Source: a virus. Taken from it: a stretch of DNA of 29,458 bases. This document shows, one piece after another, positions 14,036 to 27,688 of this stretch. Each line of letters opens with the position of its first letter. Position 1 is the stretch's first letter. The stretch covers positions 1 to 29,458 of IMG/VR virus record IMGVR_UViG_3300049812_004677. The stretch is one strand, 5' to 3'. Both the position numbers and the translations under genes were made by a program. Below the pieces are notes generated by a model. That model saw only the letters and a program-made list of their open reading frames with translations. It did no database searches and was not told where the DNA came from.

Positions 14036-14658
14036 GCGCCCGGCGCCGCCCGATGCCTCCAGCGGCCATCCTCGACGCGCTGACGGGTGTGTTCGAGCCT
14101 GCGCCGGAGCTGGAGGCGTGGGCGCGCTCGTCGTTCATTGCTGACACCGGCCAGCTCGCGAACCCGGATCACCGCCATCTGCAACAGGCAGAGATCGGCT
14201 TCCTATGGACGAACGAGGAAAACAGCCGGGCGGGGCGCACCGTGATCGGGCAATGCGAGATCATGCCGCCGATGGCGATGGGGAAGTGGCAACGTGCCCG
14301 CGCCATCGCCCAGGTGTCGGCATGGTTCGGCGGCGTGCCTGACTTTCTCATTACGATCGATGCGCAGGCGGCGCAGGCGATGGACGATATGAGTTTCTGC
14401 GCGCTGATAGAACACGAGCTGTCCCATGCGGGACAGGCGATCGACGAATTTGGAATGCCAAAATTCAACAAACGGACGGGTTTGCCGGTCTGGGCCATTA
14501 AGGCGCACGAGGTCGAAGAGTTTGTTGGCGTGGTTAAACGCTACGGCTCGACAAGCCCCGCTCTTTCTGAAATGGTCAGGGCAATTAACCACGGCCCGGA
14601 GGTCGGCGCGGCTCAAGTTGCGCAGGCTTGTGGCACTTGCCTGCGGAGAATTGCGTGA
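14032..14658 (+). CDS. Putative phage metallopeptidase (HELSH type)
   Basis: A 208-residue protein of the phage metallopeptidase type. A helical N-terminus is followed by beta strands (VPDFLITIDAQAA, about residues 99-111) and the zinc motif IEHELSHAGQ (about 125-134), an HExxH variant in which two histidines and the glutamate would form the active site. Two later histidines or acidic residues (AHEVEEFVGVV) could give the third ligand. The region before the motif has the conserved strand-helix pattern of family members (YDMSFCALIEHELSH-like). The substrate is unknown. It starts by ATGA overlap and couples to a GTG-started HNH gene. Confidence 0.75.
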   Translation: MSARRRPMPPAAILDALTGVFEPAPELEAWARSSFIADTGQLANPDHRHLQQAEIGFLWTNEENSRAGRTVIGQCEIMPPMAMGKWQRARAIAQVSAWFGGVPDFLITIDAQAAQAMDDMSFCALIEHELSHAGQAIDEFGMPKFNKRTGLPVWAIKAHEVEEFVGVVKRYGSTSPALSEMVRAINHGPEVGAAQVAQACGTCLRRIA

Positions 14659-15143
14659 CGGAAGAATGGAAATTCGTGAAGGGGTGGCCTGAATACGAAG
14701 TCAGCAACCTTGGTCGTGTGCGCCGCACAGAAACAGGCGCGATCCGAAAGCCGGTGAACATTTCTGGCTATCAAGCGATGCGGCTTACCCGCCCAGGCAA
14801 AAGCCAAATGATTTTGGTGCATCGCGCTGTCGCCTTCGCTTTTCTTCCTCGCCGACGCAGCAAAGCGATGGAGGTAAACCACAAGGATTCGGACCGATGG
14901 AACCCGCGAGCGGATAACCTTGAGTGGGTGACGAGATCACAAAACCGACAGCATGGGTACGATCACGGATATTGCGATGCGCGAGGGTCTAGAAACGGCC
15001 ACGCGAAATTGATCGAAGCAGATGCGATACAGATACGGTCGGCTGCGAAGGGCGAATATCCAGCTCTGGCAGAGAGATTGGGTGTATCGCTTGCGACAGT
15101 ACGAGACGTGGCCGCTCGCCGAACGTGGAAACACGTCGCATAA
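14655..15143 (+). CDS. NUMOD4-HNH homing endonuclease
   Basis: A 162-residue protein of the phage homing-endonuclease type. It opens with NUMOD4 (EEWKFVKGWPEYEVSNLGRV, about residues 3-22). The HNH_3 core follows: LVHRAVAFAFLP, MEVNHKDSDRWNPRADNLEWV (about 75-95) and SRNGHAKL. The C-terminus (IQIRSAAKGEYPALAERLGVSLATVRDVA) is a helix-turn-helix of the NUMOD1/IENR type. The GTG start is used because it overlaps the metallopeptidase stop (GTGA). GC looks lower than the neighbours, consistent with mobility. It may have interrupted an older operon here, since a 62-base gap follows. Confidence 0.85.
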   Translation: MTEEWKFVKGWPEYEVSNLGRVRRTETGAIRKPVNISGYQAMRLTRPGKSQMILVHRAVAFAFLPRRRSKAMEVNHKDSDRWNPRADNLEWVTRSQNRQHGYDHGYCDARGSRNGHAKLIEADAIQIRSAAKGEYPALAERLGVSLATVRDVAARRTWKHVA

Positions 15144-15205
15144 AAGGGCTTGCGTGATGTTCCCGCGCGCGTTAATGACGCAATCAGGCAATCCAAGGAG
15201 CTACC

Positions 15206-15505
15206 ATGTATATGTTCGACGCATCCACCCCCGCCCAGCGTGCCGGTGACGCGCCTGCGCTCGGTCGCAAGATCAATTCCGCTGTCGTAAACCGCAGCTC
15301 GTTCCGCGATATGTCTGCCGCCGAGCGCACCGTATGGATGGGCTGGGCGAAGGCGCACGATTGGGGCGGCGCTCCGGCGCGCTGGGCCGCGAACGGCTCG
15401 ATGCTGGTCGAAGGCGTCGACTATGACGCTCGCACCAAGGAGGCGATCATCGTTCCTGCCGAGATCGCGCCCCCTGCCGAGCTTCGCGCATGGGCGGGTT
15501 ACTGA
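15206..15505 (+). CDS. Hypothetical protein
   Basis: A 99-residue protein with a good ribosome-binding site (CCAAGGAG, six bases before ATG). It has a helical tryptophan-rich centre (MSAAERTVWMGWAKAHDWGG, about residues 33-52) and a beta-like C-terminus (GVDYDARTKEAIIVPAEIAPP). The 62 bases before it contain only a weak TTGCGT/ACGCAA inverted repeat and the start signal. The gene is separated from the next by a 76-base gap holding the first two-hairpin leader. No family is recognised. Confidence 0.6.
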   Translation: MYMFDASTPAQRAGDAPALGRKINSAVVNRSSFRDMSAAERTVWMGWAKAHDWGGAPARWAANGSMLVEGVDYDARTKEAIIVPAEIAPPAELRAWAGY

Positions 15506-15517
15506 CCATATCGGTGC

Positions 15518-15560
15518 GGGGCTGGTCAGAGCGGCCCCCATCCGATGCGGCCATCGCATC
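15518..15560 (+). promoter_or_regulatory. Two-hairpin RNA leader motif, copy 1
   Basis: Hairpin 1 pairs GGGGC (15518-15522) with GCCCC (15534-15538) around the loop TGGTCAGAGCG. Hairpin 2 pairs GATGCG (15544-15549) with CGCATC (15555-15560) around GCCAT. ATCAAC and a GAAAGGCA box then lead to the ATG at 15582. The same layout, with an identical first loop and different first-stem bases, occurs 335 bases downstream. It is likely a cis-acting RNA structure; its role is unknown. Confidence 0.6.
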
Positions 15561-15581
15561 ATCAACCGAAAGGCAAATACC

Positions 15582-15836
15582 ATGAGCGTAAGCATGAATA
15601 TTCACCGCGTCAGCGCCATCAGGGCAGGGTCCGTGGCGCACCACAACTCGAATGCGGTTTCGATTCACGTCGAAACCGAAGAGGGAAAATTCGATCTGAC
15701 CTTGTTCAACCTCCCGACTGAGCAGGCGGATTATCTGTCGCGCGTCCTGTCGCCGATCGCGAGCAGGGTGTCGGAAGAATCCATTCGAGCCGACGAGCGC
15801 GCGAAGATTGCTACGCGCCTTGGCTTGGACATTTAA
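15582..15836 (+). CDS. Small hypothetical protein behind RNA leader copy 1
   Basis: An 84-residue protein with short beta strands (VAHHNSNAVSIHVETEEGKFDLTLFN, about 18-43) and a C-terminal helix (LSPIASRVSEESIRADERAKIATRL). The start is preceded by GAAAGGCA and the two-hairpin leader, so it is independently controlled instead of coupled. No family is recognised. A second independently led gene follows at 15920. Confidence 0.6.
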   Translation: MSVSMNIHRVSAIRAGSVAHHNSNAVSIHVETEEGKFDLTLFNLPTEQADYLSRVLSPIASRVSEESIRADERAKIATRLGLDI

Positions 15837-15852
15837 GCCGACCCCATCGCAC

Positions 15853-15895
15853 GGCGGCGTGGTCAGAGCGCGCCGCCATCGATGCGGTCTGCATC
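15853..15895 (+). promoter_or_regulatory. Two-hairpin RNA leader motif, copy 2
   Basis: Hairpin 1 pairs GGCGGCG (15853-15859) with CGCCGCC (15871-15877) around TGGTCAGAGCG (15860-15870), the same 11-base loop as copy 1. Hairpin 2 pairs GATGC (15881-15885) with GCATC (15891-15895) around GGTCT. ATCAAC and GGAAGGCA follow, with ATG at 15920. The first stem differs from copy 1 yet keeps pairing, which supports selection on RNA structure. Confidence 0.65.
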
Positions 15896-15919
15896 ATCAA
15901 CGACACGGAAGGCAAGAAG

Positions 15920-16153
15920 ATGAAAACCGAACGCCAATACATCGAAGTCCAGTTCCCGAACGGCGAACGGACCTACACCTATCACCACGATGGCGATCCG
16001 GTCGGCGCTGGCGAACAGGTCAAGCTACCAGGGCGCGGCGAGGACGATGGCTGGCAGCGGGGAACCGTCGTCACCGCCTTTGTCGATAAGCCTGCGTTCG
16101 AGACGAAAGCGATCCTTGGCGTGATCGAGCCTGATGGAATGGGAGGTCGGTGA
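15920..16153 (+). CDS. Small hypothetical protein behind RNA leader copy 2
   Basis: A 77-residue, mostly beta protein (YIEVQFPNGERTYTYHHDGD, VKLPGRGEDDGWQRGTVVTAF, ETKAILGVIEP). The spacing of the strands (V.LP......GTVV) resembles small SH3-like or PriA N-terminal-like folds found in phage proteins; this is a weak guess. The start has GGAAGGCA and the second two-hairpin leader. It overlaps the next gene by TGATG. Confidence 0.6.
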   Translation: MKTERQYIEVQFPNGERTYTYHHDGDPVGAGEQVKLPGRGEDDGWQRGTVVTAFVDKPAFETKAILGVIEPDGMGGR

Positions 16154-16701
16154 TGGGGCGTGAAGTGAGAATGGTGCCCGCTAACTGGCAGCATCCGGTC
16201 GCCTATAATTACCATCGCGGCGAAAACTGCCTTGTGCCTCTTTATGAAAACAGAGGCGATTACGAGGACCGAGCCGCCGAATGGGACGAAGGCTGGGCCA
16301 AATGGCAAGAGGGCCTGTGCGAGCAATACGGCGAGGGTCCGAAGTGGGGACCTATCGACGAAGAACATCGCGCAATGCGTTACACTGATTACGCTGGTGA
16401 ACGCCCTTCGCCAGACGATTACATGCCAAATTGGCCCGCGTCAGAACGCACTCATTACATGATGTATGAGGACACAAGCGAAGGCACCCCGATTTCGCCT
16501 GCATTCGAAACGCCAGAAGAACTTGCGCGGTGGCTTGCTGACAACGGAGCAAGTGCATTCGGCGGTTCAACTGCAACTTACGATCAATGGCTTGCAACAT
16601 GCCGAGGCGCATGGGCTCCAAGCTTAGTCGCCATCAACGGGCAACTTGAGACAGGCGTCGAGTTTGCTGCCCGCACCCAATCAAAGGACACCCCGCAATG
16701 A
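16153..16701 (+). CDS. Conserved phage hypothetical protein (GREVRxVP family)
   Basis: A 182-residue protein beginning GREVRMVPANWQHP, a start seen in many phage and prophage proteins of unknown function. The next segment is rich in tryptophan and acidic residues (AAEWDEGWAKWQEGLCEQYGE). A conserved-looking part with GTPISPAFETPEELARWLADNGAS (about 113-136) ends the chain. ATG 16153 is used; the GTG three bases earlier would add one residue. No enzyme motif is visible. The gene and the next Lar-like gene show a somewhat lower GC content. Confidence 0.65.
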   Translation: MGREVRMVPANWQHPVAYNYHRGENCLVPLYENRGDYEDRAAEWDEGWAKWQEGLCEQYGEGPKWGPIDEEHRAMRYTDYAGERPSPDDYMPNWPASERTHYMMYEDTSEGTPISPAFETPEELARWLADNGASAFGGSTATYDQWLATCRGAWAPSLVAINGQLETGVEFAARTQSKDTPQ

Positions 16702-17063
16702 ACGCGCCTGTAGAGAGTAAGCTGCTGCCGTGTCCGTTTTGTGGGGCGTCTGCGATGCAAGGTTTGACTAAAGCCGTGCCGTGCCAGCTTCACGGTGAAA
16801 AGCTCCAGCGCTTCGAGATTTGGTGCCCGCATGGTTGTGCGCGCATCAATCGTGTGAACCGCAAGCTAGCCATCACCGCATGGAACACGCGCCCCCAAGT
16901 GGCCGAATTGGTCGAGGTTTTCCAATGGGCTTTCGACACTCTGATCGAACTCAATCCGAGCAATTACGATCACAATAACGTCTGCGAAGTGAACGCCGCA
17001 GCCGTCGAGGTCATGCTTGGCCTGAAACCGATCCTCGCCTCCCACAAGGGAGAGCAACCATGA
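16698..17063 (+). CDS. Second Lar-like restriction-alleviation family protein
   Basis: A 121-residue protein with LLPCPFCGASAMQG (about residues 9-22), a second zinc pair in IWCPHGCARI (about 42-51) and the ending ITAWNTRP (about 59-66), the Lar pattern. Residues 70-121 are an additional helical region (VFQWAFDTLIELNP, AAAVEVMLGLKP). It is coupled by ATGA to both neighbours. Its zinc pairs differ from those of the gene at 13051, so the copies are not a recent duplication. An anti-restriction role is a family inference. Confidence 0.7.
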   Translation: MNAPVESKLLPCPFCGASAMQGLTKAVPCQLHGEKLQRFEIWCPHGCARINRVNRKLAITAWNTRPQVAELVEVFQWAFDTLIELNPSNYDHNNVCEVNAAAVEVMLGLKPILASHKGEQP

Positions 17064-17215
17064 AGCAATCGCACGCCCCCCGCATGGTATCGCCCAAGCA
17101 CTTCTCCGGCGCCCTATGCGGGAAGCGCGGCGCGGAGATCACCGTCAACCGCCCCACCTGTCCCGAATGCCTCGCCAGGCTGGAGCAGAGCAAGGAACCG
17201 ACCAATGCAGCATGA
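17060..17215 (+). CDS. Small zinc-ribbon-like protein
   Basis: A 51-residue ORF starting in the Lar-like stop (ATGA). It has Cys20 and the pair CPEC (about residues 34-37) in a short basic chain, enough for a partial metal site. Its frame continues into an overlap of 11 bp with the next gene. The tight overlaps at both ends are the main support. No family is recognised. Confidence 0.5.
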   Translation: MKQSHAPRMVSPKHFSGALCGKRGAEITVNRPTCPECLARLEQSKEPTNAA

Positions 17216-17462
17216 CTCGAACCGGGAAGCTCGATGCTATTGCGGCACGACGCGCCCGTCAGACCCCGATAGCCTCGCGTTCTTCCAGTACCGAGGACCG
17301 GGCAGCTCGCACGCGACCACCACCTGCAAATGCGGGTACGCGCTCGAAGCGCACGATAAGCCTCACGTTCAGAAGCAATGCGCCATCACCGGCAAGGGAC
17401 AGACACCGCGCGGCCCGGCGCCATACGATAGCTTCTATTGCGGATGCAGAGGATGGGATTGA
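17205..17462 (+). CDS. Cysteine-rich small protein
   Basis: An 85-residue protein with three cysteine pairs: CYCG near residues 11-14, CKCGYALEAH near 41-50 and YCGCRGW near the end, plus histidines. It may hold one or two zinc ions and bind nucleic acid. It lies in the accessory block between the Lar-like gene and the Dam-like gene. No family is recognised. The next gene starts in its stop (TGATG). Confidence 0.55.
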   Translation: MQHDSNREARCYCGTTRPSDPDSLAFFQYRGPGSSHATTTCKCGYALEAHDKPHVQKQCAITGKGQTPRGPAPYDSFYCGCRGWD

Positions 17463-17734
17463 TGGACAAGGACACGCTTCGACACCTGTTCATTCGGGTA
17501 TGCCGGGATAGCGGGTTCCAGCTCGACACCGTTCGCGCCACCCAGCTCGCCGCGGCCATCGCCAAGGTTCACCCGCTCGACGTGTGGAGAGCCTTTCCCA
17601 GCTACGACACCATGGGAGAGATCGCCGAAGGCACGCATCCCGCGCTCAATCTGCCGATCTATGCGCCCGTTCGCGTCGAGCATCACCCGGTAGGCCGATC
17701 ATCCACCACGAAGGACACGAGAGAGGACGTTTGA
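17462..17734 (+). CDS. Hypothetical protein
   Basis: A 90-residue protein. The N-terminal half is helical (DTLRHLFIRVCRDSGFQL, ATQLAAAIAKVHPLDVWRAFP). The C-terminal half has proline turns (NLPIYAPVRVEHHPVG). The ATG at 17462 is used because it overlaps the stop of the preceding gene. It is three bases from the methyltransferase start, so both are in one transcript. No family is recognised. Confidence 0.55.
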   Translation: MDKDTLRHLFIRVCRDSGFQLDTVRATQLAAAIAKVHPLDVWRAFPSYDTMGEIAEGTHPALNLPIYAPVRVEHHPVGRSSTTKDTREDV

Positions 17735-17737
17735 CCG

Positions 17738-18229
17738 ATGGGACATTGGGAAAATGACGGGAAAAGCGACGAGTGGTACACGCCCCCGCATATCTTCGCC
17801 GCGCTCGGATGCGACTTCGACCTCGATGTAGCGCCCGCTCGCGATGGGGAAAGCTATGTGCCTGCCGCTGCTGGCTGCATGGATGGACTGACCGACGCTT
17901 GGCACGGTTTCGTATGGATGAACCCGCCGTTCGGCGGTCGCAATTCTCTCGCGCCGTGGCTCGATCGCTTCCTGTTTCATGGGAGCGGGATAGGACTCAC
18001 CCCCGATCGGACAAGCGCGCCATGGTTCCAAGACTCTTGGAGTAGAGCCGATGCTGTCTTGTTCACCCGGAAGATACGCTTCCTTCGCCCCGATGGGACA
18101 GAGGGTAAGTCTCCATCCACCGGCACCGCGCTATGGGCCGCAGGAGATAGAGCCGTGAAGGCATTGGAGAGAGCTGCGCCAAGCCTGGGCATTCTCGCCT
18201 ACCCGAAGAAGCCAACCAGACCCGACTAG
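17738..18229 (+). CDS. dam: Phage Dam-like N6-adenine DNA methyltransferase
   Basis: A 163-residue protein of the phage DNA N6-adenine methyltransferase family. It has the family start DEWYTPPHIFAALGCDFDLDVA (about residues 11-32) and the catalytic motif VWMNPPFG (about 58-65, N-P-P-F). The ending SPSTGTALWAAG (about 125-136) is also typical. It transfers a methyl group from SAM to adenine, probably to shield phage DNA from restriction or to affect gene control. It is one of two methyltransferases here; the other (6981) has NPPW. The target sequence cannot be read, but Dam-like members often recognise GATC-type sites. Confidence 0.88.
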   Translation: MGHWENDGKSDEWYTPPHIFAALGCDFDLDVAPARDGESYVPAAAGCMDGLTDAWHGFVWMNPPFGGRNSLAPWLDRFLFHGSGIGLTPDRTSAPWFQDSWSRADAVLFTRKIRFLRPDGTEGKSPSTGTALWAAGDRAVKALERAAPSLGILAYPKKPTRPD

Positions 18230-20824: not shown

Positions 20825-20912
20825 CCAGGCCGGTCTGATCCACCGGCTTGCGGGAGGGGACGCTGTAGGGCATAGCCCCCATCGCCCTATGGGCATCCTC
20901 TCCCAGACCTGG
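20825..20912 (+). ncRNA. Candidate structured RNA (three-way junction) before the large terminase
   Basis: An 88-base stretch without a plausible ORF folds into a three-way junction. P1 pairs CCAGG (20825-20829) with CCTGG (20908-20912). P2 pairs CCGGT (20830-20834) with ACCGG (20842-20846). P3 pairs GGGAGGGGA (20852-20860) with TCCTCTCCC (20896-20904), nine pairs with one G-U. An inner stem pairs TAGGGC (20866-20871) with GCCCTA (20884-20889). An intrinsic terminator follows directly. It could be a small RNA or a leader element. A packaging (cos/pac) site is another possibility, given its place before the large terminase. Confidence 0.55.
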
Positions 20913-20945
20913 CCCCGGCGTTCGCGCGTCGGGGCTTTTTCTTTT
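20912..20945 (+). terminator. Intrinsic terminator before the large terminase
   Basis: GCCCCGGCGT (20912-20921) pairs with GCGTCGGGGC (20926-20935), ten pairs with two G-U, around a four-base loop. The run TTTTTCTTTT follows at 20936-20945. This is the clearest Rho-independent terminator in the window. It ends the rightward transcript after the Tad2-like gene and the structured RNA, so the terminase must have its own promoter or rely on readthrough. Confidence 0.85.
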
Positions 20946-20970
20946 CGTCGCTGTGGTGATAGATAGCGCC

Positions 20971-22330: not shown

Positions 22331-25300
22331 ATGGCGATCACTACCGCCTTCCTGAAAGCCGGAACGACTAGCTGGACGGTTCCTGCAGGCGTTTCGAGCG
22401 TCACGGTGCACTGCACAGGCGCGGGCGGGAATGGCTTTGCTCCCACGAATGGCTCCGGCGGTGGCGGTGGCGGTGGCGAGTATGCTCGCAAGGATGCGCT
22501 GGCGGTTACACCGGGCAGCACAATCACCTGCCAAGTCGCGTCAGGTAATTCTGGCGCGGACACATGGTTTTCGTCCGTTTCTACGGTGCTGGCCCGCGCT
22601 GGCGCAGAGGGTGCGTCAGACGCGCTCAACGGTGCACCTGGAGGCGCGGTTGGCGTTGGCGATTTTGTGCGAGCGGGCGGTGATGGTGGCATCGGTAGCG
22701 GTGGCGCGGGGTCTGGCCCAGGCGGTGGCGGCGGTGCTGCGGGGCCTAATGGTGCTGGTGCGCGCGGCGGCGACAAGAACAATTCTGGCGGTGGCGGGGG
22801 CGGTGCCAACGGCGGAAGTGCCGGGCAGACGCCCGCCAATGGTGGTACTGGTGGAGCAGGCGGCAATAATCGCCTCGGACAAGGCGGTGGTGTCGGTGGG
22901 ACATCGACCATCATACCTGGAGATGGTGTCAACGGTGGTGGTGGAGGCGGAACGCGCGGAGCGGCGACCGATTCGGTCAGGAACGGCGGCAATGGTTCGA
23001 CCGACACCATCTGGACCGACAACAGTGGCGGGCCGAATAACAACCAAACGGCAGGCCCTGGGTCTGGCGGTGGGGGTAGCGCCGCGACGAGTGCGACGGT
23101 TCCGTATCGAGGCGGGCACGGCGGGACTTACGGCGGCGGCGGCGGTGGAACGCGCAACACCGGCAGCGGCCTGCAATTACCCGGTCTGGGCGGTGATGGC
23201 CTCATTGTCCTGCAATACGAAGCCGGGGCAGGCGGGAACACGATCACTGGCACCGCAGCGGGCACCATGCCCCTTGCCGGATCAGGTCAGGCCATCGCGA
23301 TCAACCGGGCAAGTGGAACCGGCTCGCTCGCCCTGACCGGCTCGTCAGCGGCGAAACTGCCTATCGCTGCAAGCAGTAGCGGCTCACTCGCCCTAGCCGG
23401 TTCATCAAACACCGCGGTGCTGACCCATGCCAGCGCAAGCGGTGATCTACCGCTGACGGGTAGCGCCGCAACCATTTCGGACAACACCGCCAACGTAGCA
23501 GGTGCGCTCGACCTGACCGGCAAAGCGACTTCATCGGTATCAGTAAACGCGGCCAGCTCTGGTGCGCTCGAATTGAGCGGAGCGGGTTCGATCGCCACTG
23601 TTGCCCTGGCTCTCCATGCCGAAGCAAACGGGCTGCTCGTTCTGGCCGGTTCAGCCAACGTGCGGAACAAGCCTCGCGCGGGGTCGCCGGGTGCCCCTCT
23701 CCCCGTCAGGCGGCAAGCCCCTGCGAAGGGGCGCATCCCAGCTAATTCACCCGGCGAAATGAAATTCACGGTTCGGGACACGCCGCCGATCCGCACGCAA
23801 AAGCTGGAGCTGTTGCGTCAGGCTCTATCGGTGACGGTGCTGGACGATGTTCTGCCGTCGACCACGATCACCAATCACGGACAGGACGAGGGGCCGCTGA
23901 CGCCCCTGTCCATTCCGCGCATCGACATTGGCAAGGTGGTGGAGACGAGCGAAGGCTCGACGCTCCAGCTATCCGAGGCTGTCCCGCTGGTAACGGTCGC
24001 ATGGCAGGCGATCGGCGACGGGCAATCGTACACGGCGGAATGGCGCGCGCGCGTGACCGAGAGCGTGGAAGATCCGGTGTCTCTCGACACGGCCATGTTC
24101 ATCTATTCGGCCACCGGCATCTATCTTGGGGAGTATGCTCGAACAGTCCAAGATGACACTTGGGAAGAGAGCGACGGGTGGCTTATCGCAACGACAGCGG
24201 CCAGCGCCGCCGATATTCGCAAGGCATTCCCTCGCGCCGCCTATGTCCGCGCCGCCCTGATCCCAGAAGGCGGAGAGGCTACGAAGCAGGTCGCGCGGGG
24301 GCGCGTGTTCAACGCCAGCACGAGCGGCGGGGCGGAAGCATTCGCAGAGCTGGCGCGCGTGCGCGCCGAAGCGGCAGAGGTCGCCCGGCTTGCGGCAGAG
24401 GGAGCGGCCAGTGCCGCCCAAATCGCACAGGCGATCATCGAGCTGGCAGAGGCGAACACCAACGCGGCGCTTGCACTCGCCCAGGGAGCGCGTGATGCCG
24501 CCCGCGATGCAGAGGCGTCGGCGATCGACCAGGCCCTTGCCGCAGCAAATTCCGCATCGGTCGGCGCCGGGTACGCGCAGACCACAATCACGAAGGCCGA
24601 CGAAGCGGCTGGTTCGGCTTCGATCGCCACCGCCCAAGCTCTTGTCGCGCAGGGGCATTCGGATGAAGCGGGCACGAGAGCTATCGCAGCCGCGACCAGC
24701 GCCGATGCCGCCGAGATCTCGAACACCGAAGCGGCCAGCTCTGCCAGCGCCGCGCAGCTCGATCGAGTGGCGGCGGAGTCCGCGCGCGAGGAAGCCGACA
24801 CATTCGCATCTGCCGCTGCGCTCCACGAGCAGACAGCGGGCACTTACGCCACCGATGCAGAGAGCTTTGCCGGAGCCGCGCAGGTCAGCCAGACTAACGC
24901 CGCGACCAGCGCAGGAGAGGCATCCGACAGCGCCGGGGCTGCTTCGACCTCGGCAGGACAGGCCAGCACGAGCGAGAGCAACGCAGCGGGAAGCGCGGCC
25001 ACCGCCAGCGAGCAAGCCGGGCTTGCAGCCACCGCGCGCAATGCAGCCGGGGAAAGTGCCAGCGCATCGGCTGACAGCGCATCGGTCGCCACCGCGCAGG
25101 CTGATGCAGCCGGGCAATCCGCTCTCGCCGCCAACGCCAGCAAGATTGCCGCCAATACGGCGCGTAGTGGCGCGGAGGCAGCGCAAGCCATCACGGTTTC
25201 GGCGCGCGACACCGCCCTGGGAGCAGAAGCGTCCGCCGTGTCGGCAAGTCAGCTCGCAGTCTCAAGCTCGACCCGATCCAAGTCCAACATTCAAACCTAC

Positions 25301-27688
25301 GGGATGACGCCGAACGCGACGTTCGTGGACTCCATGGATAGCTGGTCCCTGACAAACGGATCGCGAATTGTCGGCTCGGCAGAATATGGCGTTCGTGCCC
25401 GGCTATTGGCGCAAGGTGAGCTGCAATCCCTTCATCGGCACCCGGTCAATCCGAACCGCGTTTATGAGGTCAAGGCCAACTATAACATTCTGAACCAGCC
25501 GCAGGAATCGCTGATCGGCTTGGCCTGCTTCGATGTGGCTGGAACCCTTTTGGGCCGAATTTACGCCCCCTCACTTGGCGGTCAAAGAGCGCCGGGCGCA
25601 TATCAGGTTTCGCAGGTATTCACAGGGACAGCCAACCAGCCGACGTTCTTTGGCGATTCCACCAAATTCATCATCGGAACCGCAACGGTCCAGCCGATTT
25701 TCATCGGCAATCGCAACTCCGTCAGCGGAGGGATTACCGATGTCCGCTGGGTGTACCTCGATGACGTAACCGAGCGTGTGCTTTCAGAAGCCGCAGCCAG
25801 CATTGCGGAAACAGCTCGTATCAGCGCTTCGCAGGATGCGGCTGCGGCAGAGGCATCGCGCGTCCTCGCGGCAGCGGCCAAAACCGAGGCCGAAAACGCA
25901 AGCGGTGACGCGGCAGGGTTCGCAGCAACGGCATCCAACGCCGCGTCAGACTCGGCCAGCGCGAAAACGCAGGCAGAGGGCGCGGCATCAATAGCTACGA
26001 GCCAGAAGGAGCTTGCCGTCAGCGCACGCGGAAGCGCAGAGGCGGCGAGAGACACGGCACTCGGCTATCGAGACACAACGCTTGGCTATCGTGACGCTGC
26101 GAACCAGCACCGCGCGGAAGCCGCTCTGTCCGCCAGCCAGGCCGCTACGTCGAAGGTCGATGCGGAATCCGCAGAAGCGGTCGCGATCTCGAACGCCCAA
26201 CTATCCGCCGCGGTCAACGGCGCGCGAGGCGGCTATCAGGTTCATTTTCAGCGCGATGGGCTACTGGCGACCCGGCAATATACAGCCAATCTTTCGGTCG
26301 ATGTAGCTCCCGTTCTGCCGGGCAACGGTGTCTCGTTCTATAACGATCAGGGATATGGAAGGGCCATCCTGCAAAGCGCCGCCGCAGACTACATTCGCGC
26401 TCGTCAATATATCCCGATCCGAGCGGGCGCGATTTACAGAATAAGGGGCACGCTTTCCGGTTCGTCGGATTCCACCGGCAGCAGCCGGATAGGGCTTGCC
26501 TGCTACAATGCGGGCGGCAGCTACGCAGGTTTTTATAGCGGTGTGTTCGTGCAATCCGCGAATACTAGTGGGCCGTTCCAAACCTACGAGTTCACGGTGA
26601 CAGCCGGGGAGATCCGCGGAGCGATCGGGAACGCCGATTACATCGCGCTCGCATGGGCGTTCAATATTGGGGGCGCCGGTTCGACGGCTTTTGCGCTTGG
26701 CGAGATCGAGGAAATCTCCGCCCTGAAAAGTCTTGAGGCGAGCGTAACGGTCAATCAGGCGGCAGTGGCGACATTGCAGTCAGCGTCCGCTCTGTATGAA
26801 GTGATCGTCGCCGCCAGCGGCTCAAACCCGGCGATGGTGCAGCTATTGGCCGGGCTGGGCGGCTCCAAAGTAGGCATTGTTGCCGACACGTTCGCGGTCG
26901 GGAACAAGATCGACGGCATCATCAAAGAGGTCATTCGCGTTCGTAATGGGCAAGCGGAGATTGAGAGCGCGTTGATCCGAAAGTTGCTTGTTCCGCCGCG
27001 CGCAGACTCCGCGATCAATATGCTGGTCGAGCTGGCGCCTATCATCGTGAGCGGTAGTCATGGGCAGACGATCGACTATCAGGGCGGCGCCAGCTTTGGG
27101 TCCGCGCCGTTGCGCATCGAGCCGGTGCTGGAGGATTTACCTGCTCTTGCAACGGGCGAGAAATGGACGATCTCAACGCAAAAATTTGGTAGCGGGTTCA
27201 TTCCGTCTGTGACCAAGACCGGCCCTGGCAGCTATACGTCGCATAACGCAGGCAATTCGCGTTCCCAGGCTGGCACGCCTCAGTACGTAGCCGATAAGAC
27301 TCAAGCCGAACCCTCATATAATCGTCGATATGTGTTCTCGACGCTGGTGGGTGCCGCGGTTACGCAGACCGTTGAAGAGGGGATCAACCGCTATCGCTAT
27401 CGCGCGGAAGGGACGCTCTACGCATGGGTCGGCGGGACGCTAACGGCGGTCGGAAGCTATAACGCAGAGTGGCAGAGCGATGGTGCGCCGGTCAGCGCAA
27501 GCCGCACCATTACCACGCTGGTTGATGTGGGAGCCGACCTTGGCGCTAGAAGCCCTATGTTCGGCGCGCATCCGACCGTAGGATCGCTGGGATCACTGGC
27601 TGTGTCGTGGGAAACGTCCACGGCAGGCGCGCCGGTTGTGGTGAACGACACGATTCGCTGGAGGGTCTATGCGCCCGCCCGCACGTAA
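22331..27688 (+). CDS. Giant modular tail fibre / host-specificity protein
   Basis: A 1785-residue protein with clear modules. Residues 1-300 are a glycine-rich domain (runs of Gly, N-terminal LKAGTTSWTVPAGVSSV as in phage Gly-rich fibre starts). Residues 307-445 hold about seven repeats of 20 residues built on G.L.LTGSA. A folded domain covers about 450-660. An alanine/serine/glutamate-rich helical stalk covers 667-987. A first jelly-roll-like domain is at 987-1153 (FVDSMDSWSLTNGSRI), then a second stalk to 1295, a second similar domain to 1470, and a C-terminal region to 1785. It should bind the host surface. It has no close ribosome-binding site but follows 12 bases after the upstream stop. 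Confidence 0.85.
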   Translation: MAITTAFLKAGTTSWTVPAGVSSVTVHCTGAGGNGFAPTNGSGGGGGGGEYARKDALAVTPGSTITCQVASGNSGADTWFSSVSTVLARAGAEGASDALNGAPGGAVGVGDFVRAGGDGGIGSGGAGSGPGGGGGAAGPNGAGARGGDKNNSGGGGGGANGGSAGQTPANGGTGGAGGNNRLGQGGGVGGTSTIIPGDGVNGGGGGGTRGAATDSVRNGGNGSTDTIWTDNSGGPNNNQTAGPGSGGGGSAATSATVPYRGGHGGTYGGGGGGTRNTGSGLQLPGLGGDGLIVLQYEAGAGGNTITGTAAGTMPLAGSGQAIAINRASGTGSLALTGSSAAKLPIAASSSGSLALAGSSNTAVLTHASASGDLPLTGSAATISDNTANVAGALDLTGKATSSVSVNAASSGALELSGAGSIATVALALHAEANGLLVLAGSANVRNKPRAGSPGAPLPVRRQAPAKGRIPANSPGEMKFTVRDTPPIRTQKLELLRQALSVTVLDDVLPSTTITNHGQDEGPLTPLSIPRIDIGKVVETSEGSTLQLSEAVPLVTVAWQAIGDGQSYTAEWRARVTESVEDPVSLDTAMFIYSATGIYLGEYARTVQDDTWEESDGWLIATTAASAADIRKAFPRAAYVRAALIPEGGEATKQVARGRVFNASTSGGAEAFAELARVRAEAAEVARLAAEGAASAAQIAQAIIELAEANTNAALALAQGARDAARDAEASAIDQALAAANSASVGAGYAQTTITKADEAAGSASIATAQALVAQGHSDEAGTRAIAAATSADAAEISNTEAASSASAAQLDRVAAESAREEADTFASAAALHEQTAGTYATDAESFAGAAQVSQTNAATSAGEASDSAGAASTSAGQASTSESNAAGSAATASEQAGLAATARNAAGESASASADSASVATAQADAAGQSALAANASKIAANTARSGAEAAQAITVSARDTALGAEASAVSASQLAVSSSTRSKSNIQTYGMTPNATFVDSMDSWSLTNGSRIVGSAEYGVRARLLAQGELQSLHRHPVNPNRVYEVKANYNILNQPQESLIGLACFDVAGTLLGRIYAPSLGGQRAPGAYQVSQVFTGTANQPTFFGDSTKFIIGTATVQPIFIGNRNSVSGGITDVRWVYLDDVTERVLSEAAASIAETARISASQDAAAAEASRVLAAAAKTEAENASGDAAGFAATASNAASDSASAKTQAEGAASIATSQKELAVSARGSAEAARDTALGYRDTTLGYRDAANQHRAEAALSASQAATSKVDAESAEAVAISNAQLSAAVNGARGGYQVHFQRDGLLATRQYTANLSVDVAPVLPGNGVSFYNDQGYGRAILQSAAADYIRARQYIPIRAGAIYRIRGTLSGSSDSTGSSRIGLACYNAGGSYAGFYSGVFVQSANTSGPFQTYEFTVTAGEIRGAIGNADYIALAWAFNIGGAGSTAFALGEIEEISALKSLEASVTVNQAAVATLQSASALYEVIVAASGSNPAMVQLLAGLGGSKVGIVADTFAVGNKIDGIIKEVIRVRNGQAEIESALIRKLLVPPRADSAINMLVELAPIIVSGSHGQTIDYQGGASFGSAPLRIEPVLEDLPALATGEKWTISTQKFGSGFIPSVTKTGPGSYTSHNAGNSRSQAGTPQYVADKTQAEPSYNRRYVFSTLVGAAVTQTVEEGINRYRYRAEGTLYAWVGGTLTAVGSYNAEWQSDGAPVSASRTITTLVDVGADLGARSPMFGAHPTVGSLGSLAVSWETSTAGAPVVVNDTIRWRVYAPART

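Follow-up and report, generated by a model that had tools for sequence, protein, structure and literature searches.

Two-hairpin RNA leaders between stop codons and Shine-Dalgarno sequences in unrelated phage contigs

We identified a repeated, structured RNA leader in the gap between the stop codon of one phage gene and the Shine-Dalgarno (SD) sequence of the next, and sequence comparison indicates that it is part of a small family of cis RNA elements in at least three unrelated phage contigs. In this family the stop codon is followed by a segment of 8-16 nt (segment a), a GC-rich hairpin 1, about 3 nt, hairpin 2, the SD and the start codon. The stretch of DNA analysed here (the window) is an entire IMG/VR virus record of 29,458 bases. 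Its two copies, at 15506-15573 and 15837-15912, fill the stop-to-SD part of the intergenic gaps 15506-15581 and 15837-15919, which precede two unrelated orphan genes (Table 1).

Table 1. Features of the two leader copies and the genes that follow them (window coordinates).
Feature	Position	Strand	Basis
Stop codon TGA of the upstream ORF 15206-15505; start of the copy 1 leader	15503-15505	+	
Copy 1 segment a, CCATATCGGTGC; potential partner of the 5' arm of hairpin 2	15506-15517	+	computed folding
Copy 1 hairpin 1, GGGGC-TGGTCAGAGCG-GCCCC; 7-nt loop GUCAGAG, closing pairs G-C and U-G	15518-15538	+	
Copy 1 hairpin 2, GATGCG-GCCAT-CGCATC	15544-15560	+	
Copy 1 SD, AAAGG, 8 nt before ATG	15569-15573	+	
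84-aa orphan gene after copy 1; no PHROG or Pfam match	15582-15836	+	
Copy 2 segment a, GCCGACCCCATCGCAC, immediately behind stop codon TAA (15834-15836)	15837-15852	+	
Copy 2 hairpin 1, GGCGGCG-TGGTCAGAGCG-CGCCGCC	15853-15877	+	
Copy 2 hairpin 2, GATGC-GGTCT-GCATC	15881-15895	+	
Copy 2 SD, GGAAGG, 7 nt before ATG	15907-15912	+	
77-aa orphan gene after copy 2	15920-16153	+	

Both two-hairpin copies lie where a preliminary description of this DNA had placed them, each before a small gene (84 and 77 aa), and the two genes are unrelated to each other. Hairpin 2 ends 21 nt before the ATG in copy 1 and 24 nt before it in copy 2. A "GGAAGGCA-like box" reported at 22-25 bases before the ATG is instead an ordinary SD, which ends 7-8 nt before the start codon. 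Upstream of the 84-aa gene its reading frame stays open as far as an ATG at 15423 (15423-15581), so that copy 1 is formally translatable; the ATG at 15582 is the only start of this frame with an SD, and GC content by codon position does not settle whether 15423-15581 is translated.

The two gaps align with a local alignment score of 34, compared with a maximum of 18 in 2000 shuffles and a best score of 18 among about 3000 random real pairs drawn from the window. Three of the nine pairs of hairpin 1 have both partners replaced between the copies and remain paired, around an identical 11-nt stretch, which confirms the earlier observation of an identical loop on changed, still-pairing stems; the element as first described is real. 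Once its closing U-G and G-C pairs are assigned to the stem, the loop is energetically one of 7 nt, GUCAGAG. Hairpin 2 is the same in both copies save for one G-C to G-U change and therefore gives no covariation evidence. The pair-count control has little power on just two sequences, the observed value being reached by 70 of 500 shuffles, so that more copies were needed. The fold energy is significant for copy 2 (z -3.5) and modest for copy 1 (z -1.5 to -2.1).

Further copies were found in other viruses. The pattern GGTCAGAGC-GATGC-GCATC matched 61 stretches in IMG/VR, among which the only two independent matches with a stem of at least 7 pairs (at most one mismatch) around GTCAGAG were in L086 and L114/L121; the GATGC/GCATC of hairpin 2 in these homologues belonged to the search pattern itself. 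Both copies sit between a stop codon and a start with an SD. The element is thus present in two further viruses, with two copies in L134 (the same contig as L114) and one in L086. The second L114 copy, which the pattern did not select, matches the TGGTCAGAGCG loop exactly and has a different hairpin 2 (CCGC-ATCA-GCGG). A covariance model built from the two window copies alone (R1) scores L134:6643-6708 at 41.6 bits, compared with 33 bits for the best, noise-level score among 385 alphaproteobacterial genomes, while L134:6020/6030, which lies outside the training set of both R1 and the model R2, scores 23.5 and 27.7 bits, respectively. The window has no protein in common with either the L134 or the L086 contig, and these two have one weak match in common. 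In a MAFFT alignment of four copies, made from trimmed sequences without fitting to structure and with the loop set in register by hand trimming, 94.4% of cells are paired and five pairs of hairpin 1 carry double changes. The covariation score is 0.38, a value that none of 500 shuffled alignments (0.17) reached; sliding the partners gave no more than 0.12. The preliminary description had held that a lack of homologues, or homologues whose stems lose pairing, would speak against it; instead, two further viruses carry the element with its pairing kept. Selection on RNA structure, as it had suggested, is supported by pairing maintained in three viruses, while its reading as a protein-binding leader or sRNA target is no more than a candidate.

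The plan of the leader extends beyond these copies. L086 contains about ten gaps of the two-hairpin plan, before genes with the SD CCGGAGACTC, and its gaps gave 10 matches to a descriptor of that plan (a few of them being alternative stop codons of one gap), compared with 0.3 in shuffled gaps; other loci were near background. Over the 1208 gaps of all fetched loci there were 54 descriptor matches against 38.7 in shuffled gaps, so the plan is not general to phage gaps. Altogether, order and spacing are common to 15 leaders, two from the window, three from L134 and ten from L086: stop codon, hairpin 1, short linker, hairpin 2, SD and start, with 8-16 nt from stop to hairpin 1 and 14-24 nt from hairpin 2 to the start. 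The loop GUCAGAG is identical in 5 of the 15, from three phages and on differing stems, and the 11-nt loop is the same in both window copies and L134:6020. Hairpin-1 loops in L086 include GNRA (GCGA, GCAA), UNCG (TGCG), GUCAGAG and others, the third L134 leader carries yet another, and hairpin 2 in L086 is often GATGC-N5-GCATC. Because hairpin-1 loops vary among the L086 and L134 leaders, the layout is the constant feature. Likewise, GUCAGAG cannot be what makes the leaders work generally, since neighbouring leaders use other loops.

Other searches gave no further members. IMG/VR patterns combining the full loop with GCATCATC had no match, exact patterns being apt to miss variants; the looser TGGTCAGAGCG-CATC-GATGC pattern and a first pattern scan of genome contigs gave 5 matches each, all attributed to chance, and CGATGCGG-GCATCATCAAC gave 21 coding-type matches, mostly copies of one prophage sequence. 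Scans confirmed by tblastn with the 99-aa and 84-aa proteins revealed no relatives, a viral scan with the L114 primase-like protein returned two known contigs only, and BLAST of the two leaders in INPHARED gave chance matches only. The search of alphaproteobacterial genomes with covariance models that the preliminary description had recommended (R1 and R2, 385 genomes) returned noise or nothing, with about 16 candidates scored per genome and no positive control, and absence from these genomes is weak evidence. The leader pattern matched twice in the same 385 genomes, which is about the chance expectation, and R1 gave noise on 31 relatives of the upstream metallopeptidase. A 28-bit candidate, L111, had no visible start context and was regarded as chance. 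Several leader-sized gaps of Citromicrobium phage vB_CbaS-RXM (L158) hold other repeats without the leader; those near 23358, 27847, 29563 and 32560 carry the repeated palindrome AGGACAAATTGTCCT with flanks GTTGACG/CGTCAAC, which is a repeated gap element of a different kind.

The gene content of the window (terminase, HNH endonucleases, replication-initiation protein, DUF2303 and methyltransferases) is that of a complete or partial tailed-phage genome. The closest named relatives of the DUF2303 protein are mostly from alphaproteobacterial phages (34-36% identity), and megablast of 12-22 kb of the window against INPHARED found no match. A metallopeptidase-like phage gene (phrog_513) ends at 14658. 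In relatives it is directly followed by a homologue of gene 18239, and the block 14655-18229 is absent there, which identifies this block as an accessory-gene insert carrying the leaders. The insert splits two genes that adjoin in about 30 related contigs and contains an HNH endonuclease, orphan genes, a Lar-like gene and a methyltransferase; a NUMOD4/HNH endonuclease gene at its start may be the agent of insertion. The Lar-like protein (16698-17063) is weakly similar to the Lar restriction alleviation protein, below the Pfam cut-off. Elsewhere, the window encodes an LPD38 polyvalent-type protein (16-1008) and a 1785-aa protein (22331-27688) with a weak PHROG match only (phrog_4474) and no Pfam family. 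Positions 20877-20950 of this phage record match the Rfam suhB/mmgR sRNA family (RF00519) at 42.8 bits (gathering threshold 41), followed by a terminator-like hairpin and a T run; this may be a phage-borne copy of an alphaproteobacterial sRNA.

The preliminary description overlooked two features: the leaders start at the upstream stop codon, and in computed folds segment a, which directly follows that codon, can base-pair with the 5' arm of hairpin 2, lengthening hairpin 1 and excluding hairpin 2. For the core of copy 1 the two folds are about equal (-27.3 and -27.2 kcal/mol), copy 2 favours the extended fold by about 6 kcal/mol, L134:6021 disfavours it by 5.7 kcal/mol, and in most leaders the two lie within about 3 kcal/mol. 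Across the 15 leaders, a leader's own segment a yields a gain of -8.3 kcal/mol compared with -5.6 kcal/mol when swapped with that of another phage (p 1.4e-4), and shuffling segment a gives a combined p of 5e-4, with leaders of one phage being related and hence non-independent in both tests. Individual tests are mostly non-significant (p 0.02-0.7), copy 2 excepted. A switch operated through segment a is possible on these predicted energies.

Taking the family, its placement, its conserved pairing and its recurring loop as observed, we infer a function from them and tentatively propose, with somewhat less than even confidence, a cis-acting structured mRNA leader that occupies the stretch from stop to SD, uncouples the two genes and keeps the next SD open, possibly by alternating between two folds. 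Hairpin 1 would lie at the leading edge of the ribosome that ends translation of the upstream gene, and hairpin 2 would lie just clear of the 30S footprint at the next start. Such a structure would uncouple neighbouring genes and prevent upstream RNA from pairing with the SD, giving the small gene its own constantly open start site, and might also shield the message from decay. Moreover, a terminating ribosome that covers segment a could shift the balance from the extended hairpin towards the two separate hairpins. Folding predictions for the core leaders leave the SD open or at most marginally paired, and the leaders contain no promoter and no intrinsic terminator. An uncoupling, start-presenting leader would best explain the layout, given an open SD, the absence of a T run or promoter, and a placing tied to both ribosomes. 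Sharp changes in structure at ORF boundaries have been described in E. coli operon mRNAs (PMC5318159). Uncoupling alone, however, does not account for the strict conservation of GUCAGAG on a changing stem, which favours either a ligand or a heptaloop of special stability. Given that GNRA and UNCG loops replace GUCAGAG in sister leaders of L086, we lean towards GUCAGAG being a stable heptaloop rather than a ligand site.

Were a ligand involved, a phage or host protein or an sRNA would bind the exposed GUCAGAG loop and the small genes would be switched together, much as coat protein, RegA and N are hairpin-binding proteins. The recurrence of GUCAGAG in three phages on differing stems, and of the 11-nt loop in the window copies and L134:6020, argues for such binding, but the GNRA, UNCG and other loops on the same phages' remaining leaders argue against it. 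In addition, the only annotated sRNA-like gene of the window (suhB/mmgR) pairs with the loop no better than with shuffled loops (fraction 0.27-0.43), and no phage-coded binder common to all was found, the window sharing no protein with the other two phages; we consider a ligand rather unlikely. We regard as unlikely, too, a translation-controlled switch by which ribosomes ending upstream cover segment a and let hairpin 2 form, the extended hairpin forming otherwise, so that the downstream gene reads upstream translation. It would account for a segment a that always begins within a few nucleotides of the upstream stop, for two folds of similar energy in most leaders and for the better fit of each leader's own segment a, but the SD is buried in neither fold, and copy 2 and L134:6021 lean strongly in opposite ways. 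It is also doubtful that the leaders form a new phage cis-regulatory RNA family in which the terminating ribosome switches the fold of the next leader and the heptaloop GUCAGAG is recognised by a factor or is stable in the manner of a tetraloop.

Two further accounts were considered. The hairpins might stabilise or process mRNA, either by blocking 5'-to-3' loss of the downstream message or by marking cuts that divide the transcript into messages for individual genes, a role played in T7 by RNase III hairpins. In favour of this reading, the stems at gene borders are GC-rich and capped by very stable loops (GNRA, UNCG). It leaves the fixed distances to stop and start and the kept loop unexplained, the leader has no known cut site, and we judge it distinctly improbable. 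Alternatively, the leader could be a tag that moves with small accessory genes as a homology site for exchange, its RNA fold being secondary. The window copies do lie inside an accessory block missing from relatives, and the start-associated sequences (SAS) and extended SAS (ESAS) of cluster K mycobacteriophages are likewise tied to subsets of small genes; recombination, however, needs no compensatory stem changes, which would reduce identity, and a tag of this kind seems very improbable.

Among known elements, no Rfam 15 family matches the leaders, even at E-values up to 5, in line with the earlier statement that no named motif resembles them. The loop TGGTCAGAGCG is also a common 3' half of the tRNA D-loop and D-stem, whereas the leader lacks the D-stem partner GCTC and pairs its loop differently; a tRNA was rejected on this ground and on the absence of any ARAGORN prediction, and the match is probably a coincidence. 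An intrinsic terminator was rejected as well, with no T run behind either hairpin and no + strand match at the leaders. Translational bypassing, suggested by a stop codon followed by a stem-loop, seems unlikely, no landing site having been seen. The antitermination RNAs of lambda (boxB/nut) and HK022 (put) are phage hairpins with a conserved loop, and put has two hairpins. These elements are found where early transcripts begin, as a rule once per operon, whereas the leader stands directly before an SD between genes, in up to ten copies per contig, and no boxA was seen; lambda-type nut sites combine boxA with a boxB hairpin that N/Nus factors bind and lie near an early promoter, and no promoter-like site was found in 15000-16300. 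Structured 5' leaders and RNase III hairpins in T7 and T4 messages also affect phage mRNA. The leaders resemble these in having GC-rich hairpins at gene borders (T4 review, PMC3014915) and share with them no demonstrated sequence or loop.

How the expression levels of small genes are set among abutting or overlapping phage genes is poorly understood, and a structured spacer is a candidate. If the proposed function is correct, a spacer between a terminating and an initiating ribosome that is kept by compensatory change in unrelated phages would be a natural operon insulator or coupler, and useful in design. The nearest concept is that of the mycobacteriophage SAS and ESAS, which in cluster K recur many times at the translation starts of some non-structural genes (PMC3203893). 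The SAS spans the start site with a constant 13-nt sequence, GGGATAGGAGCCC, and the ESAS comprises upstream inverted repeats of 17 bp with sequence-conserved arms and a spacer of 4-13 bp, of unknown function (PMC3203893). Like them, the leaders are repeated before the starts of small genes and place inverted repeats upstream. Unlike the SAS, they contain no 13-mer GGGATAGGAGCCC, the start regions reading AAAGGCAAATACCATG and GGAAGGCAAGAAGATG, and, in contrast to the ESAS, their hairpin-1 arms measure 5-9 bp and vary in sequence around a conserved loop. They have two hairpins and number about 10 in L086, 3 in L134 and 2 in the window, compared with many SAS/ESAS copies per genome. If true, the function proposed for the leader would give ESAS-like repeats a testable mechanism.
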